The notes under the pieces were generated by a model. It saw nothing but the letters and a program-made list of their open reading frames with translations, made no database searches and was not told the DNA's origin. From positions 1 to 64,000 of the forward strand of contig NZ_JAIKLE010000027.1 in NCBI RefSeq assembly GCF_022267315.1: 64,000 nucleotides of DNA, read 5' to 3'. Source of the stretch: Maribellus maritimus (GTDB lineage: Bacteria; Bacteroidota; Bacteroidia; Bacteroidales; Prolixibacteraceae). Each line of letters opens with the position of its first letter. Position 1 is the stretch's first letter. This document shows, piece by piece, positions 17,085-25,660 of the stretch. A program made the position numbers and the translations under genes.

Positions 17085-17660
17085 ATGGCAAAACCAGAAA
17101 TCAAATCGATAATAATAAGTGCTGCCACTCAGTATTTTTCAAAATTCGGGTTTTATAAAACAACGATGGATGAGATTGCCAAACACATCCATAAAGCAAA
17201 AGGAGTTTTATATTATCACTATAATAGCAAGGAAGAATTATTTAACGAAGTATTAAAGCAGGAGCTTAGTACCGTAAAAACTGAGTTACAGAAGGTTGTT
17301 AATTCTGATGAAGATGCTTTAACTGTTCTTAATAACTATTTTTTTAAAAGGCTTGAGTTATTGCATGAATCTGTAAATTACCATGAAACTTTGAAAGCCG
17401 ATTTTTTTGAAAAATATCATTTTGTGGAGGAAGTTAGGGAAGACTTTACCACGTTTGAGAGAAATAATTTTTATCAGATGCTAAAAAAAGGTGAGGATGA
17501 AGGGGTATTGCATTTTAATAATATTGACTCGACAGTAAATATCCTGTTAATGCTGGTCAACTCCATGGAAGTGCCGTTATTCCTTCAAAACAAATATTCC
17601 GAGTACATTCATACAATTAAAGAACTTGCAGAATTTCTTGTAAAGGGATTAAAATCTTAA
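17085..17660 (+). CDS. TetR/AcrR family regulator of the efflux operon
   Basis: 191 residues. The N-terminal helix-turn-helix is AATQYFSKFGFYKTTMDEIA ... AKGVLYYHYNSKEELF (about 10-55). The C-terminal domain is a generic helical ligand pocket. It sits directly upstream of a membrane fusion protein and RND gene, and identical inverted repeats lie at its own promoter and in the intergenic region before the efflux genes. It therefore very likely represses both. The inducing ligand is unknown; nearby lipid genes make a fatty acid or lipid-like ligand plausible. Confidence 0.92.
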   Translation: MAKPEIKSIIISAATQYFSKFGFYKTTMDEIAKHIHKAKGVLYYHYNSKEELFNEVLKQELSTVKTELQKVVNSDEDALTVLNNYFFKRLELLHESVNYHETLKADFFEKYHFVEEVREDFTTFERNNFYQMLKKGEDEGVLHFNNIDSTVNILLMLVNSMEVPLFLQNKYSEYIHTIKELAEFLVKGLKS

Positions 17661-17747: not shown

Positions 17748-17803
17748 AATTGCAATAATGTGAAGCATAAGAAGAAAATTAGAATTAATAAAAAGTGAAT
17801 ACA

Positions 17804-18844
17804 ATGAAACAATTAAATTGGTTTTTTGCCGTAAGCGCATTAATCCTTGCCGGTTGCAGCACCGGAAATTCAAACATTGATAAAATTGTGGGGGGGAAAG
17901 GCATTCCTGTTAAAGTAAGTGAAATTGGTAAAAGTATTAATGCTACCGATCATATGTATATTGGAACCATTGAAGAATCCTTTTCTGTTCCTCTGAGTTT
18001 TTTGGTTACCGGAACTGCAGAAAAAGTCCTTGTGGATGAAGGACAAATGGTAAAAAAAGGCCAGTTACTGGCAGTCCTTAACAGTGAGAGTTATCAAAAT
18101 ATGTATCAGGTTGCATTATCAAAAGCTAAACAGGCTGAGGATGCATATAACCGGCTGGAACCTATGTATAAAAAAGGTAGCCTTCCTGAGATTAAATACG
18201 TGGAAATAAAAACCGGTTTAGAGCAAGCTCATTCATTGGCTTCAATTTCAGAAAAAAATCTTAATGACTGTAATCTTTATGCCCCTGCGGATGGGATCGT
18301 CGGCAGAAGGATGATAGAATCAGGAATGAGTATAATTCCCGGCAACCCGGTTTTTCAATTGGTAAAGATTGACAAAGTAAATGTAAAAATTCCTGTCCCG
18401 GAAAATGAAATTGCCGGGATACAAAAAGGACAGGAAGCATATGTAAAAGTAAGTGCTTTAGGTGACCGGAAGTTTGAAGGAGAGGTAACAGAAATTGGTG
18501 TATTGTCTAACCCTCTTTCTCATACCTATAATATTAAAGTTGCACTAAATAACCCGGACAAGATATTAAAACCCGGAATGGTTTGTAAAGTAAGCATCAA
18601 TAATCCTGTAATGGGGAACAGAATTGTTGTTCCACTTTCAGTTATACAGGTTGGAGGGGACAAGAGTAAATATGTATATGTAGCCAACTCAAGTAAAGAT
18701 AAAGTGGTTAAAAGAAATGTTGAGTTAGGCTCTTTAGCTAGCAACGGCGTGGTTATAACAAGCGGCTTATCTGCAGGTGATCTGCTTATTACCGAAGGGT
18801 ACCAGAAAATAAACGAGAGCACAACCATCCAAATCGTAAGATAA
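17804..18844 (+). CDS. RND efflux periplasmic adaptor (membrane fusion protein), lipoprotein
   Basis: 346 residues from the ATG at 17804; an in-frame GTG nine bases upstream is possible. Signal peptide II with lipobox LILAGC. AcrA/HlyD-like architecture: lipoyl half-motif VPLSFLVTGTAEKVLVDEGQ and KKGQLLAVL, a short alpha-helical hairpin (about 90-150), second lipoyl half LYAPADGIVGRR, then beta-barrel and membrane-proximal domains. It bridges the RND pump to the outer-membrane channel. The next gene starts one base after its stop. Confidence 0.93.
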   Translation: MKQLNWFFAVSALILAGCSTGNSNIDKIVGGKGIPVKVSEIGKSINATDHMYIGTIEESFSVPLSFLVTGTAEKVLVDEGQMVKKGQLLAVLNSESYQNMYQVALSKAKQAEDAYNRLEPMYKKGSLPEIKYVEIKTGLEQAHSLASISEKNLNDCNLYAPADGIVGRRMIESGMSIIPGNPVFQLVKIDKVNVKIPVPENEIAGIQKGQEAYVKVSALGDRKFEGEVTEIGVLSNPLSHTYNIKVALNNPDKILKPGMVCKVSINNPVMGNRIVVPLSVIQVGGDKSKYVYVANSSKDKVVKRNVELGSLASNGVVITSGLSAGDLLITEGYQKINESTTIQIVR

Positions 18845-18845
18845 T

Positions 18846-21800
18846 ATGAAAAGGTTCGAGATAGTTGAGTCTGCCATGCGACACAGGCAGATCGTATTTT
18901 TAATTAGCGCTTTGCTGCTTATACTTGGCGTTTATGCGCTTTTTGTAATGCCCCGGCAAGAATTCCCTCAGTTTACCATCCGGCAGGGATTGGTAATAGG
19001 TGTCTATCCCGGTGCCAGTTCCGAAGATGTAGAACAGCAACTGACAACAAAAGTCGAGAAATACTTATTTGGTTATGGAGAAATTAAAAAGGAGAAAACC
19101 TATTCAATCTCGAAAGATGGGATGATGATTGTTTTTGTCACTTTAAACGATGATATCAAAAATACCGATGAATTTTGGGCAAAGTTAAATCACGGACTGA
19201 ATACTTTTAAGGCTCAATTGCCTACCGGAGTTTTGGCTTTACTGTCAGATAATGATTTTGGTGACACTTCGGCTTTGTTGATTACCCTTGAATCAGACAG
19301 AAAGACTTACCGTGAACTGGAAAGTTATTTAGATGAACTGGAAAACCGGCTTCGAAGAATTAAATCAGTATCCAAACTTCGTCATTATGGTTTACAAAAG
19401 GAACAAATCAGTATATATATTGAAAAAGAAAAGCTTACCAATTACGGGATAAACACTGCAACCCTGGCAGGAAATCTTTTTACACAGGGTTTTACTACAA
19501 TGAGTGGCACTGTCGATAATGATCAGTTCATTGCGCCGATCCATATTTCGCAATCGTATAACAGCGAACAGGATATTGCCGAGCAAATCATTTATTCCGA
19601 TCCTACCGGAAACATAATCCGTTTGAAAGATGTGGCGCGAATCGTTCGTGAGTATCCCGATCCAGACAGTTACATTGCTAACAACGGGCACAAAAGTTTA
19701 TTGATTTCAATGGAAATGCAGCCTGGGAATAACATTGTTCAATATGGCAAAGAAGTTAATGAAGTATTGGAACAATTTCAATCTGAATTACCAGGTGATG
19801 TAAGCATCGAACGCATTGCCGACCAGCCAAAGGTCGTTAGTGATTCGATTAAGACATTTCTGATTGAAATGCTGTATGCCATTATTGCCGTTATTATGGT
19901 CACCATGGTTTTACTTCCATTGCGGGTGGCAACTGTTGCTGCAACTTCAATTCCTATCACAATTTTTGCCTCGCTTGGGATTATGTATTTAACGGGCATG
20001 GAATTAAATACAGTAACCCTTGCCGCATTGATTGTAACCCTGGGGATGATCGTAGATAATTCAATAGTAATTGTAGATAGTTACATGGAAAAACTTGATC
20101 AGGGAATGTCGCGATGGCGTGCAGCCATAAGTAGTGCTAAAAGCTTTTTTAAAGCAATTTTTTCGGCAACACTTGCTATTAGCATTACTTTCTTTCCTTT
20201 TCTATTTACCTCAACGGGAATGATAAAAGATTTTGTCAGACTATTCCCCTGGACTGTGACCATAACATTGGGAATTTCCCTGGCAGTTGCAATGTTGCTA
20301 ATTCCATTCATCCAGTATACATTTATCAAACAAGGATTCGAACAATCAAAACGCAAGAAAAAGGAAGGCAGACGTAATTTTCTGGATATTGTTCAGGAAA
20401 CCTATGAAAAGTGGCTCGTAAGAGCTTTTAAGCATCCGAAAATAACCATCGGAACAGGAATTTTGTCTGTATTGCTTGGCATTGTACTTTTCACCCAGAT
20501 ACCTCAGCAGTTAATGCCTATTGCCGAACGAAACCAGTTTGCAGTTGAAATTTATCTACCTAAAGGTAATTCACTGGAACAAACTGCCTTAGTTGCAGAC
20601 AGTTTGGAAATAATGATGAAAAAAGATGATCGGGTAAAATCTATTACCTCATTTATAGGTACCAGTTCACCACGTTTTCATACTACCTATGCACCTAAAA
20701 TGCCAGCCCGAAATTATGCGCAGTTTATTGTAAATACTCCTTCGAACCGGGCAACAGAAGAAATTCTTGATGAATATACAGACTTTTATGCAGAATATTT
20801 CCCCAATGCGCATGTTCGCTTTAAACAGCTCGATTACCAGGAAGCTGCCAACTCGATTGAGATACGTATTTCAGGAAATAATATTGCTGATTTAAAAACA
20901 GCCGCTGATTCACTAATTGTTAAAATGAGGACAGTGCCGGAATTAACCTGGGTGCATACCAATTTTGAAGAAATGTTGGCAGGCACACATGTCGATATTA
21001 ACGATATAGAGGCTAATCGGTTAGGAATTAACAAAACAATTGTAGCCACAAACCTGGCTATGCGTTTTGATGGAGTACCATTAACAACTTTATGGGAAAA
21101 CGATTATCCGGTTGCAGTAAAGCTAAAAGCGGAACGCGATCATGAAGTTTCGTACAGCGATATTGAGAATGAATACATTCATTCTCTGATCCCCGGAGTT
21201 TCTGTTCCGTTACGTCAAATCGCTGACGTTAAGCCCGATTGGACACAAGGTCAGATAATTCGTCGAAACGGAGTACCAACCATAAGCATTGTAAGCGATG
21301 TGAAACGCGGTGTGAATTTGAATCAGGTATTCCGATCTGTGAAAAAAATAGCCGATAGTCAACCCTTGCCCGAGGGGACCAGTTTGAGTTATGGTGGCGC
21401 GTATGAAACCGATTCGGAGATGCTGCCACAGGTTACCGGTGGCTTGTTCATGAGTATCTTTATTATTTTCCTGATCCTGGTGTTTCACTTTCGAAAAATC
21501 AACCTGGCCTTACTGGTTATGGGTTCGTCAACTTTAAGTATTATCGGAGCCGTGCTTGGTGTGTTGATCATGGGGCTCAACTTTGGAGTGACCTCCATAT
21601 TAGGGATTGTCAGCCTGATTGGTATACTTGTTCGAAACGGCATTATTATGCTCGATTATGCTGAGGAACTTCGACAACATGGAAAGAAAACCGCACTTGA
21701 AGCTGCATTTGAAGCAGGTAAACGGCGTATGCGACCTATCTTCCTTACATCGATGGCTGCATCAATGGGGGTAATTCCTATGATTATCAGTAAAAGTGCC

Positions 21801-23306
21801 CTTTGGGCACCTATGGGTGTCGTAATCTTCTTCGGGACAATTACGTCTATGATATTTTTAGTTCTTATTCTTCCGGTGGCCTACTGGTTAATTTTCAGAA
21901 AAGTAGATAAAAACAAGAAGAAAATCACAATAGCTGAGCTTTTAAATAATTCTAAAATAAAGCCAGCATTATTAACACTTGCCGTTTTACTTGGCTTGAC
22001 ACCGGTACTTTCTGCTCAAAATCAAAATAATTATACACTGGAACAATGCAAAACGCTGGCATTACAAAATAATGCCCAGATTAAAAACAAGGTGCTGGAT
22101 GTCGAATCATCCCAACAGGTAAAAAAAGCTGCTTATACCAGGTATTTTCCACAGGTGGACGCAACCGCATTCGCTTATAAATTTACCGATCCATTGATAA
22201 ATATGGAAATGCAGGGAGGGAACCTCCCTGTTTATGACGGAAATCCGGCCAATCTACCATTGGCAACGCAATTTGCTTATTTCCCGTCAGTATCAATTCC
22301 GTTAATTGAGGAAGGCGTTATTGGAATGGCAACCGCAACACAGCCTGTTTATGCCGGAAAGCAAATTTCAACGGGAAACAAACTTGCTGATTTGGGGATA
22401 GAGGTCAATCAACTTCAATTAAAATCAACCGAAAAGGAGATTGCTTTTGAAACCGAGAAAAGGTATTGGCAAATTGTTTCACTGGGCGAAAAAATGAAGA
22501 CCCTGGAAAATTACACCAGTTTGCTGGATACATTACATAAAGAAGTGACTGATGCTCTAAATGCCGGATTAATTACCCGGAACGACTTGTTAAAAGTTGA
22601 GTTAAAACAAAATGAACTGCAGATGAAACGGCTAAAACTTGAGAACGGGACAATCCTGGCTAAAATGGCTTTTTGTCAGTACATCGGTGTGCTTTATGAT
22701 AAAAACATCAGTTTCGTCGATAGTACAGGATTAACAGAGTCACCGGAACTTATTTACACCGATCATCAGGAAGCGCTGGTTAACCGTGAAGAATATCAAT
22801 TATTACAAAAAAGTACATCTGCCGAAAAGTATCTGACCAAAATGCAGAAAGGTGAATATATGCCCCAGGTTGCGGTTGGTGTCGGGGCCATGTATCTGGA
22901 TATTATGGATGATAAGGGAGCTGTTAATGGCTTAGCTTTTGGAACTGTAAAAATCCCTATTTCCGGGTGGTGGGAGGCAAAATACAAGATGAAGGAACGC
23001 CAGTTTAAAGAAGAGCAGAACCGCAACATGGTAACCGACAATACCGAAAAACTTTTGCTTCAGATGCAGCAGGGAAGAAATTCACTCGAAGAAGCATACC
23101 AACAGGTTCAACTGGCGAAAATTTCTATCGGTCAGGCTTCTGAAAACTTAAGGGTAACACAGGATAGCTATTCCGCAGGTATGGTTAATATCTCTGATTT
23201 ACTTGATGCACAGGCACAGTTGCAGCAATCAACCGATTTGTATGTAGACGCTTTAACTCAATTTAAACTAGCAAAAGTGAATTATCTGCAAATTACCGGG
23301 AGGTAA
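18846..23306 (+). CDS. RND efflux permease fused to a TolC-like outer-membrane factor
   Basis: 1486 residues in one uninterrupted frame. Residues 1 to about 1035 are a complete AcrB/MexB-type permease: N-terminal TM1, two porter domains, TM4 with GMIVDNSIVIVDSYMEK, and the C-terminal TM bundle ending LPVAYWLIFRKVD. A new hydrophobic segment (about 1039-1056) then ends LSAQ, like a signal peptide. Residues about 1058-1486 are a full OMF (TolC) domain: YTLEQCKTLALQNN, four-helix coiled coils, and AGMVNISDLLDAQAQLQQS near the end. Fusion of inner-membrane pump and outer-membrane channel implies either cleavage after LSA or a chain spanning both membranes. Operon with the adaptor and under TetR operators. 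Confidence 0.93.
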   Translation: MKRFEIVESAMRHRQIVFLISALLLILGVYALFVMPRQEFPQFTIRQGLVIGVYPGASSEDVEQQLTTKVEKYLFGYGEIKKEKTYSISKDGMMIVFVTLNDDIKNTDEFWAKLNHGLNTFKAQLPTGVLALLSDNDFGDTSALLITLESDRKTYRELESYLDELENRLRRIKSVSKLRHYGLQKEQISIYIEKEKLTNYGINTATLAGNLFTQGFTTMSGTVDNDQFIAPIHISQSYNSEQDIAEQIIYSDPTGNIIRLKDVARIVREYPDPDSYIANNGHKSLLISMEMQPGNNIVQYGKEVNEVLEQFQSELPGDVSIERIADQPKVVSDSIKTFLIEMLYAIIAVIMVTMVLLPLRVATVAATSIPITIFASLGIMYLTGMELNTVTLAALIVTLGMIVDNSIVIVDSYMEKLDQGMSRWRAAISSAKSFFKAIFSATLAISITFFPFLFTSTGMIKDFVRLFPWTVTITLGISLAVAMLLIPFIQYTFIKQGFEQSKRKKKEGRRNFLDIVQETYEKWLVRAFKHPKITIGTGILSVLLGIVLFTQIPQQLMPIAERNQFAVEIYLPKGNSLEQTALVADSLEIMMKKDDRVKSITSFIGTSSPRFHTTYAPKMPARNYAQFIVNTPSNRATEEILDEYTDFYAEYFPNAHVRFKQLDYQEAANSIEIRISGNNIADLKTAADSLIVKMRTVPELTWVHTNFEEMLAGTHVDINDIEANRLGINKTIVATNLAMRFDGVPLTTLWENDYPVAVKLKAERDHEVSYSDIENEYIHSLIPGVSVPLRQIADVKPDWTQGQIIRRNGVPTISIVSDVKRGVNLNQVFRSVKKIADSQPLPEGTSLSYGGAYETDSEMLPQVTGGLFMSIFIIFLILVFHFRKINLALLVMGSSTLSIIGAVLGVLIMGLNFGVTSILGIVSLIGILVRNGIIMLDYAEELRQHGKKTALEAAFEAGKRRMRPIFLTSMAASMGVIPMIISKSALWAPMGVVIFFGTITSMIFLVLILPVAYWLIFRKVDKNKKKITIAELLNNSKIKPALLTLAVLLGLTPVLSAQNQNNYTLEQCKTLALQNNAQIKNKVLDVESSQQVKKAAYTRYFPQVDATAFAYKFTDPLINMEMQGGNLPVYDGNPANLPLATQFAYFPSVSIPLIEEGVIGMATATQPVYAGKQISTGNKLADLGIEVNQLQLKSTEKEIAFETEKRYWQIVSLGEKMKTLENYTSLLDTLHKEVTDALNAGLITRNDLLKVELKQNELQMKRLKLENGTILAKMAFCQYIGVLYDKNISFVDSTGLTESPELIYTDHQEALVNREEYQLLQKSTSAEKYLTKMQKGEYMPQVAVGVGAMYLDIMDDKGAVNGLAFGTVKIPISGWWEAKYKMKERQFKEEQNRNMVTDNTEKLLLQMQQGRNSLEEAYQQVQLAKISIGQASENLRVTQDSYSAGMVNISDLLDAQAQLQQSTDLYVDALTQFKLAKVNYLQITGR

Positions 23307-23434: not shown

Positions 23435-25660
23435 TTGAGAAAAAATACAATTGTTTCCGTGCGAAAAGTTATCACATATATTGTACTAAGTTTGTGCTTA
23501 TTCTTCACCACTTTTGTTTCGGCACAAGAGGATCGCATTAATATACAGCGTCCAAAAGTGGCTGTAGTACTAAGTGGTGGAGGAGCAAAAGGTTTTGCCC
23601 ATATTGGCGTTTTAAAAGTTTTGGAACAGGAAGGGATTCCAATTGACATTATAATTGGTACCAGTATGGGAAGCCTGATTGGCGGATTTTATTCATTGGG
23701 GTATACTGCGGATGAAATTGAATATATTGTAAAGAGCCAGAATTGGGAGAAAGTCCTATCCGATAATGTGCCACGAAATGATCTCTCAAAAAATGATCAG
23801 CTTTTAAAACAAAGATATTTACTCTCTTCTACATTTTCCGATTTCAAAACCATTACTCTTCCCCAGGGGATAATAAAAGGCCAGAATATTTTAAATATTT
23901 TTTGCGGTTTAGCCGGGAATGTCCCAGTTGATGCTGATTTTAGTCAACTCCCGATTTCATTTGCCTGCATTGCGGCCAATTTGGAGACAGGGGAAGAAGT
24001 GATTATAAAAGACGGTTTTTTCCCTACTGCCTTATTTTCCAGCATGGCAATTCCCGGAGTTTTTCATCCAGTAAATAGAGAGAACCTGCTTCTTGTTGAT
24101 GGCGGATTGGTAAACAATTTCCCAACCGATGTCGCAAAAAAAATGGGAGCAGACATTATTATTGGCGTAGATATAAGGGGGGACCTATATCCCCGTGAAA
24201 AATTAAAGTCAATTGATGGTGTCTTCGGTCAGATGATAAATTTTCTGGGACAGGGAAAAGATTCATTAAACAACAGTTATTGCGACATTCTTATCCATCC
24301 TGATATTACCGGTTATTCGGTCGGAAGTTTTTCGAAAGAAGCAGCAGACACATTGGTTCTAAGGGGAGAAAAAGCTACCCTTTTATTAAGAGACACTATT
24401 CAAAAACTGAAAAAAGAGAACCATTTGGAACCGAGAATATATTCCCGCGAATATACTATAACAGAAAAATGGAAAATTACCGAGATAGGATTTACTGAAC
24501 GAAAAAACCTGGATAAAACCTTTTTAAAAAACAAACTCAATCTGCAATTACCTGGGTATTATTCAAATAAGGAGTTAAAAAGTGCAATTGACAGGCTATA
24601 CGGATATGGAGAGTTTGATCTCGTCTATTATTATCTCACAAATAATGAAACAGGTAAAACGCTCAATTTAAATATTGTCCCAAGAAAGATTTATTCCCAA
24701 AGTATAGGATTTAAAGTAAACACAAATGATGCAGCAGCTGTATTATTCAATATTAACAGAAAAGATTATGAAAAAACCATAGGTTTTCTATCTGCGAGTA
24801 CTGAGCTGTCGGCAAATCCAGGTGTTAATCTTGTAGCAGAAACTAATAAAAGGAATTTGCCAACTTTAGGTATTGAATTAAAAGGGAAATACCAGAAGTA
24901 TAAAATATATAACGAAGGGGATAAACTGTCAAGTGCAGATGTATTTTATTCAGCGCTAGATATTTATTTATATAAAACCTATTTCAACCGGCTAATTCTG
25001 GGTTTGGGCATACAAGAAGAATATTTTAACGGTGATGTTTTTACAAAAAACACTAATTCATTAGTCCTGGCCTCAAAAACCAACCAGTTTCTTTCCAATG
25101 CCTATACTTACATTATTTTCGATAATATGGACGATTTTTATTTTCCCCAAAAAGGCACTCGCCTGGAAGCGGAGTTTTCAGTATACTTTGATTTGTCAGG
25201 AAATAGCAGCTTAAGTTCTGCCCTGCTTTTTAAAATTAAAAATGCCATCCCACTATCTTTCAATACTACATTCTTGTTTGATGTTTACAGCCGCTCGATG
25301 TTCGACAATGCCTATCCACTAATAAAAACAACATTTGTTGGAGGTGAACCCTATTCGCAATACTTTAATTATCATTTACCTTTTGTTGGTCTTCCTCCGG
25401 TAACTCTTGCCGGCAGGTACACCAATATCGGGTTGGCAGGAATACGTTTTCATGTGGCTAAAAATCAATACGTTTCATTGGTATATAATTTAATGGCACA
25501 GGGCAATAATTATAATGAGCTAAATAATTTTCTTATCACTAATGGTGGCGGAGTAAGGTATTCAGTGGATTCCAGGTTAGGACCTATTGAAATAGGAATA
25601 GGTTATGCGGGAAGGTATGATAAACCCACATTCTCCGCCAATCTCGGACTTTGGTATTAA
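23435..25660 (+). CDS. Patatin-like phospholipase with C-terminal BamA-type barrel (PlpD/type Vd-like)
   Basis: 741 residues from a TTG; a GTG at 23459 (MRKVITYIVLSLCLFFTTFVSAQ) gives a more typical signal peptide and may be the real start. The patatin domain (about 40-235) has GGGAKG, nucleophile elbow GTSMG and DGG in LLVDGGLVNNFP. Then comes a POTRA-like domain (about 350-415) and an Omp85/surface-antigen beta-barrel to the end (LGLWY, terminal aromatic). Family knowledge: such proteins place or secrete a phospholipase at the outer membrane. It follows the efflux operon and precedes lipid genes, so a role in outer-membrane lipid turnover is likely. Confidence 0.9.
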   Translation: MRKNTIVSVRKVITYIVLSLCLFFTTFVSAQEDRINIQRPKVAVVLSGGGAKGFAHIGVLKVLEQEGIPIDIIIGTSMGSLIGGFYSLGYTADEIEYIVKSQNWEKVLSDNVPRNDLSKNDQLLKQRYLLSSTFSDFKTITLPQGIIKGQNILNIFCGLAGNVPVDADFSQLPISFACIAANLETGEEVIIKDGFFPTALFSSMAIPGVFHPVNRENLLLVDGGLVNNFPTDVAKKMGADIIIGVDIRGDLYPREKLKSIDGVFGQMINFLGQGKDSLNNSYCDILIHPDITGYSVGSFSKEAADTLVLRGEKATLLLRDTIQKLKKENHLEPRIYSREYTITEKWKITEIGFTERKNLDKTFLKNKLNLQLPGYYSNKELKSAIDRLYGYGEFDLVYYYLTNNETGKTLNLNIVPRKIYSQSIGFKVNTNDAAAVLFNINRKDYEKTIGFLSASTELSANPGVNLVAETNKRNLPTLGIELKGKYQKYKIYNEGDKLSSADVFYSALDIYLYKTYFNRLILGLGIQEEYFNGDVFTKNTNSLVLASKTNQFLSNAYTYIIFDNMDDFYFPQKGTRLEAEFSVYFDLSGNSSLSSALLFKIKNAIPLSFNTTFLFDVYSRSMFDNAYPLIKTTFVGGEPYSQYFNYHLPFVGLPPVTLAGRYTNIGLAGIRFHVAKNQYVSLVYNLMAQGNNYNELNNFLITNGGGVRYSVDSRLGPIEIGIGYAGRYDKPTFSANLGLWY

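Follow-up and report, generated by a model that had tools for sequence, protein, structure and literature searches.

The gene examined here occupies positions 18846-23306 on the forward strand of the window, a 64,000-nucleotide stretch of Maribellus maritimus DNA (positions 1 to 64,000 of contig NZ_JAIKLE010000027.1, assembly GCF_022267315.1). It is one continuous frame of 1486 codons, opening with ATG and free of internal stops, in which an RND permease and a TolC-type outer-membrane factor (OMF) are joined by a 40-residue junction. It is very probable, on the strength of the sequence comparisons below, that its product is a polyprotein, permease and channel of a tripartite RND efflux pump in one chain, which signal peptidase cuts apart.

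The initial annotation had described a frame running from a pump into a second signal-like segment, marked by LSAQ (residues 1055-1058), and on into a TolC-like factor; the frame and the domain searches confirm this. The permease part scores 535 bits against Pfam ACR_tran (cut-off 28) across positions 2-1020 of the 1021 in the profile, and is a member of that family. The OMF part belongs to Pfam OEP, which it matches in two stretches both when searched alone (E 5.2e-43, 147.5 bits, cut-off 22) and within the whole chain (best stretch 1065-1281, E 1.9e-39). As a single-sequence query against the PDB it gave no match at E <= 0.01; a profile built from 17 such C-terminal OMF parts matches the PDB chains of TolC (E 4e-14) and OprM.

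The permease was earlier called AcrB-like. That it is a full RND permease stands, but the AcrB label is loose: its best PDB sequence matches are MexK (1.3e-114) and 6vej (“Probable RND efflux transporter”), before AcrB. MexK and similar RND permeases, which work with a separate OMF, are homologous over the permease length and are the closest in the PDB by sequence; MexK-type chains have about 1025-1031 residues, and their alignment with the window protein stops at residue 1020. None of the 25 NCBIfam matches listed (of 29) attains its own cut-off. The protein falls outside TIGR00914 (CusA/CzcA heavy-metal RND; 313 bits, cut-off 701) and also outside the multidrug families NF033617, NF000282 and TIGR00915 (458, 391 and 342 bits, cut-offs 1250, 1250 and 940).

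As expected of a tripartite RND efflux system, an adaptor is encoded alongside the permease and OMF (202 bits against TIGR01730, cut-off 94.9), its stop codon lying a single base before the permease ATG. All of the loci described below that have at least 600 nt of upstream sequence, 31 fused and 40 split, likewise carry an adaptor homologue on that side. Export by a tripartite pump would be the function deduced from the presence of the three parts. The features are collected in Table 1.

Table 1. Features of the fused gene and of the genes upstream of it (window coordinates)
Feature	Position	Strand	Remarks
TetR-type regulator, upstream	17085..17660	+	PF00440 E 1e-14
Periplasmic adaptor (membrane fusion protein), own gene	17795..18844	+	TIGR01730, HlyD_D23; lipobox-like ...LILAGC
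RND permease module	18846..21896	+	residues 1-1017; PF00873 (ACR_tran) over 7-1016, E 3.7e-160
Basic linker, cytoplasmic location expected	21897..21965	+	residues 1018-1040; without in-frame ATG/GTG/TTG
Internal signal peptide, hydrophobic core and c-region	21966..22016	+	A1041-A1057, LSA at end; site-anchored columns
Q1058, predicted +1 after signal peptidase I, pyroglutamate expected	22017..22019	+	Q in 30/30 distinct fused chains, window included; Q-rule PMC5837995
TolC-type OMF, mature residues 1058-1486	22017..23303	+	PF02321, two stretches

Fused and split relatives

Stop-free frames covering both parts are present in relatives at 98, 98, 83, 82, 77, 74, 74, 73, 72 and 64 % identity, and lower, the frame at 83 % being ended by a contig edge. 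Within the family, where 26 of 140 genomes match at E <= 1e-200, such fusions span 98 % to 46 % identity, plus one at 34 %. Matches were also obtained in 73 of 393 genomes of the order (1e-220) and 16 of 395 of the phylum (1e-200); split genes are included in these two counts and the own genome in all three. With the C-terminal part as query, a match of 97 % identity was found in a Prolixibacteraceae metagenome-assembled genome.

Seventy-five permease loci were classed, 32 as fused and 43 as split; these are best matches, which favour close relatives, so that the ratio of fused to split among them is not a frequency. The 32 fused records hold 30 distinct junctions, that of the window included; L014 is a copy, its junction being identical to those of L013 and L041, and was omitted from the tree. 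The fused label of L036 was set by hand, the single-sequence OMF search having missed an OMF that Pfam OEP confirms, and four of the 30 distinct chains (L016, L025, L035 and L067) are truncated by a contig end. An OMF gene lies downstream in 40 of the 43 split loci, and in three there is none within the locus.

Of the 74 permease domains in a quick maximum-likelihood tree (branch support by the Shimodaira-Hasegawa-like approximate likelihood-ratio test, SH-aLRT, only), 31 are from fused and 43 from split loci. The fused rows fall into two clades of 14 rows each, one of which contains the window gene, and three single positions (L024, L036 and L070). The fused and split states change five times on this tree, all five changes being forced by starred branches, as against about 24 times with shuffled labels. 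Given the split outgroups, five fusions would be the simplest reading; one ancestral fusion would demand 15 losses. A tree holding all fused rows as one group, a group defined by the trait and not by the tree, was tried and the best such tree was rejected (approximately unbiased test, p-AU 5e-30). The fusions probably arose by loss of the stop between adjacent genes. The OMF shares the permease frame in 15 of 40 split loci (hand count), about one third, and therefore no claim is made that frame agreement favours fusion. At another locus (L083:565-3528) the permease of a relative is itself in two overlapping frames (341 + 700 residues), with the OMF separate.

It might be supposed that two separate genes have simply been merged by a sequencing or assembly error, since 43 of the 74 tree rows are split and in some of these a single in-frame stop separates permease and OMF with the frame unchanged. 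Sequencing error is ruled out, however, because the junction is kept open in 30 distinct fused chains and because one genome that carries such a fusion (G036) is a single contig of 7.8 Mb. Furthermore, the fused chains cluster on the tree, and a related fusion is found in a complete, named plasmid record. For the relatives the explanation is refuted in practice, and overall a merger by error is judged exceedingly improbable. The G036 genome has two fused paralogues, L013 and L038, which share 98 % and 77 % identity with the protein of the window gene.

Nine pairs of fused genes were compared, and in each of the three regions (permease, linker and OMF) the proportion of nonsynonymous differences (pN) falls below that of synonymous differences (pS). 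The ratio of nonsynonymous to synonymous rates (dN/dS) of the linker could be computed for five pairs, where it is 0.04-0.31, and is saturated in the other four.

The junction between permease and channel

In all 30 distinct fused chains the last permease helix is followed by a basic stretch, a hydrophobic core and then A or G before Q, with K and R absent from the core at -17 to -6. This is the anatomy expected of a polyprotein cut by a Q-rule signal peptidase I, and it is also that of the free N-terminal signal peptides of the split relatives (37 compared), which the junction resembles. Q at +1 is the signal-peptidase rule described for Bacteroidetes in the accessible text of PMC5837995, whose signal peptidase I substrates, like the junction, have a hydrophobic core and then A-Q; the junction signal differs from these substrates in its position, some 1040 residues from the N-terminus of a protein with many membrane spans.

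The whole chains (43,172 positions) were scanned for [AVLSTIGC]x[AG]Q preceded by a hydrophobic core, with the cut before Q. This motif is present at the junction in 30/30 and has only two matches elsewhere, one of which (L025, 1049) is also within the junction. The conservation is of the residues and not of the codons: the +1 position is always Q, encoded by CAA in 20 chains and CAG in 10, and the -1 position is A in 28 (GCA 10, GCT 8, GCG 6, GCC 4) and G in the remaining two. All 30 chains have an A/G-Q dipeptide in the last 22 residues ahead of the OMF, as against 7.8 chains expected from shuffling of those residues. The fixing of Q at exactly +1 across such deep divergence is best explained if this residue becomes an N-terminus, exposed by cleavage.

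The start codons have fared differently. Over an equal range upstream of the site an ATG is present in 36 of 37 split OMFs as against 9 of 30 fused chains, and chains with no ATG, GTG or TTG in that range number 0 of 37 and 11 of 30 respectively, the window gene being one of the 11. After fusion, then, the needs of separate translation (the start codon) decay while those of separate processing persist.

Processing of the chain

Under the polyprotein reading, a single ribosome would make permease, linker and channel, there being one open frame with no ATG, GTG or TTG ahead of the core. The permease would insert with its C-terminus in the cytoplasm, the known topology of RND proteins, and the basic linker would remain inside; because RND C-termini are cytoplasmic, linker and signal would be correctly oriented. 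The hydrophobic segment, to judge from its conserved anatomy, would act as a Sec signal that directs the channel domain to the periplasm, and signal peptidase I would cleave between A1057 and Q1058 (positions 22016 and 22017), as the conservation of the site and the Bacteroidetes Q-rule suggest. The new N-terminal Q would probably be cyclised, and the spent signal would be left on the permease C-terminus as a 13th helix unless trimmed. Finally, the channel would move to the outer membrane and assemble with the separately encoded adaptor. A search of the own genome with the PF04389 profile found five M28-type places, among which a glutaminyl cyclase was not singled out, and no claim is drawn from it.

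The initial annotation had put the cut after about residue 1056, one residue from that predicted here, and had offered two readings, a polyprotein and an uncut chain spanning the envelope. The first is favoured by the signal peptide, by the A/G-Q junction, which its suggested survey of homologues has now found in 30/30 distinct fused chains, and by the recurrence at five tree positions. In the second, the channel would stay tethered to the pump, with the hydrophobic segment kept as a 13th membrane helix. The continuous frame is compatible with this and a 1:1 stoichiometry would be fixed too; indeed the proposed tie between pump and channel synthesis follows under either reading. The tether, however, appears to be too short. 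Only 2-16 residues separate the cut site from the first OMF-homologous residue, at most about 6 nm when stretched, against some 15-20 nm from the inner membrane to the equatorial belt of the OMF, a distance estimated from the figures given in the accessible part of PMC4754349 (33 nm for the assembled pump, 10 nm for the part of the OMF in the periplasm and 6 nm for the density of the adaptor); helix H1 of OprM is located in the equatorial domain according to the available text of PMC8277102. An uncut chain should therefore not reach the assembled channel. The fixing of A/G at -1 and Q at +1 despite synonymous change also speaks against it, and this alternative is considered very unlikely.

Several observations nevertheless weigh against a polyprotein. 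Scored with a weight matrix built from the 37 signal peptides of split relatives, the junction comes first in only 15 of the 32 fused records; it is in the top four for 26 and ranks 5 to 34 in the other six, and the best-scoring place elsewhere is often the first membrane segment of the permease itself. The initial site picker favoured A and Q, a bias that the motif scan and the shuffle test were meant to offset; when sites were picked blind to Q, a mean of 0.38 of the candidates precede Q, with at least one such candidate in each of the 30 chains. The linker is fast-evolving. In addition, PMC5837995 states, in its accessible text, that pyroglutamate formation is untested for inner-membrane proteins. 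Lastly, the in-frame ATG retained in nine fused chains lies 13-33 residues before the site (as in L035, with MKKALATLLILPL), and this would suit a mixed output in which an internal start also, or mainly, yields the channel and the fused frame is incidental read-through. Such an arrangement is considered unlikely, given the 11 chains that lack any of the three start codons in range; in the window gene itself a single TTG, which falls inside the hydrophobic core, is the sole candidate from the end of the permease to the site.

Stoichiometry and comparable fusions

Well-studied tripartite pumps are assembled from separately made parts. In the fused gene, synthesis would be coupled for two subunits needed in equal number, with the adaptor, needed in double dose, excluded; a stoichiometry of 3:6:3 has been proposed for known pumps (accessible text of PMC4754349). 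Possibly, though this is put forward tentatively, the fusions represent a recurrent polyprotein strategy of Bacteroidota, in which three-copy subunits are fused repeatedly, are cleavable by the Q-rule, are in part without their own start and are delivered equally and in the same place, with the 13th helix retained. This reading counts the five fusions in the present RND clade, the CusA/CzcA pumps being counted separately. How cells match the numbers of pump and channel is a fair question, and because the two have been tied together repeatedly with a cutting site retained, both a 1:1 supply and a co-localised assembly can be put to the test.

The CusA/CzcA fusions of Bacteroidota share the permease-signal-OMF order and, in the loci examined, an A/S-Q junction, but they belong to a different RND subfamily and have 23 % identity with the protein of the window gene. 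Among the matches listed from 296 phylum genomes, 128 of 150 rows span both parts without a stop (hand count, own genome included; a fused query favours fused matches at the top), one has a single TAA and 21 are permease only. In 30 CusA/CzcA-OMF loci, several of them near copies, A/S-Q follows a hydrophobic stretch in 30 by eye and in 21 by the strict motif. The own genome has one such fusion, of 1448 residues with the junction LSNVAKAQDG; in all, two of its 17 distinct frames above the ACR_tran cut-off also have an OEP match (hand count). Among the plasmid matches listed are full-length fused ones named “CusA/CzcA family heavy metal efflux RND transporter”, from Runella slithyformis DSM 19594 and Haliscomenobacter hydrossis DSM 1100; 3,564 plasmid records match the CusA-type chain, and only 39 do so with at least 80 % coverage at one place. 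A plasmid search also found split relatives, in Parabacteroides distasonis. A parallel is the FbcH cytochrome b/c1 precursor of Bradyrhizobium, in which two subunits of one complex are made as one chain and parted at an internal signal peptide; it differs from the window protein in that other proteins and a single membrane are involved.

The RND-OMF architecture is already present in databases. A 1467-residue relative from Persicobacter psychrovividus (WP_338399011.1), with the junction ...QLSWG/QVQ, is annotated as permease only; the channel part has thus been missed, a warning to annotators. In the open-licence literature searched, on the topics of fusion and internal-signal polyproteins, no description of an RND-OMF fusion was found. 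The accessible text of PMC4827864 treats outer-membrane protein fusions, none with RND, and in that of PMC6532875, on Chryseobacterium CzcA, the terms “fused” and “outer membrane” are absent.

Two other chains were noted. On contig C77 of the own genome (L085:1300-6024, reverse strand) a 1574-residue chain carries ACR_tran at 2-1028 and ABC_tran at 1303-1447, with extra apparent membrane segments between the RND permease and the ABC ATPase domain; a proton-driven type of pump and an ATPase within one frame is odd. Downstream of the fused gene, at 23435-25660 (forward strand), lies a patatin-like phospholipase whose C-terminal part is of the Omp85 type (PF01734, PF19143) and whose N-terminus reads ...TTFVSAQED, a Q-rule-like signal.

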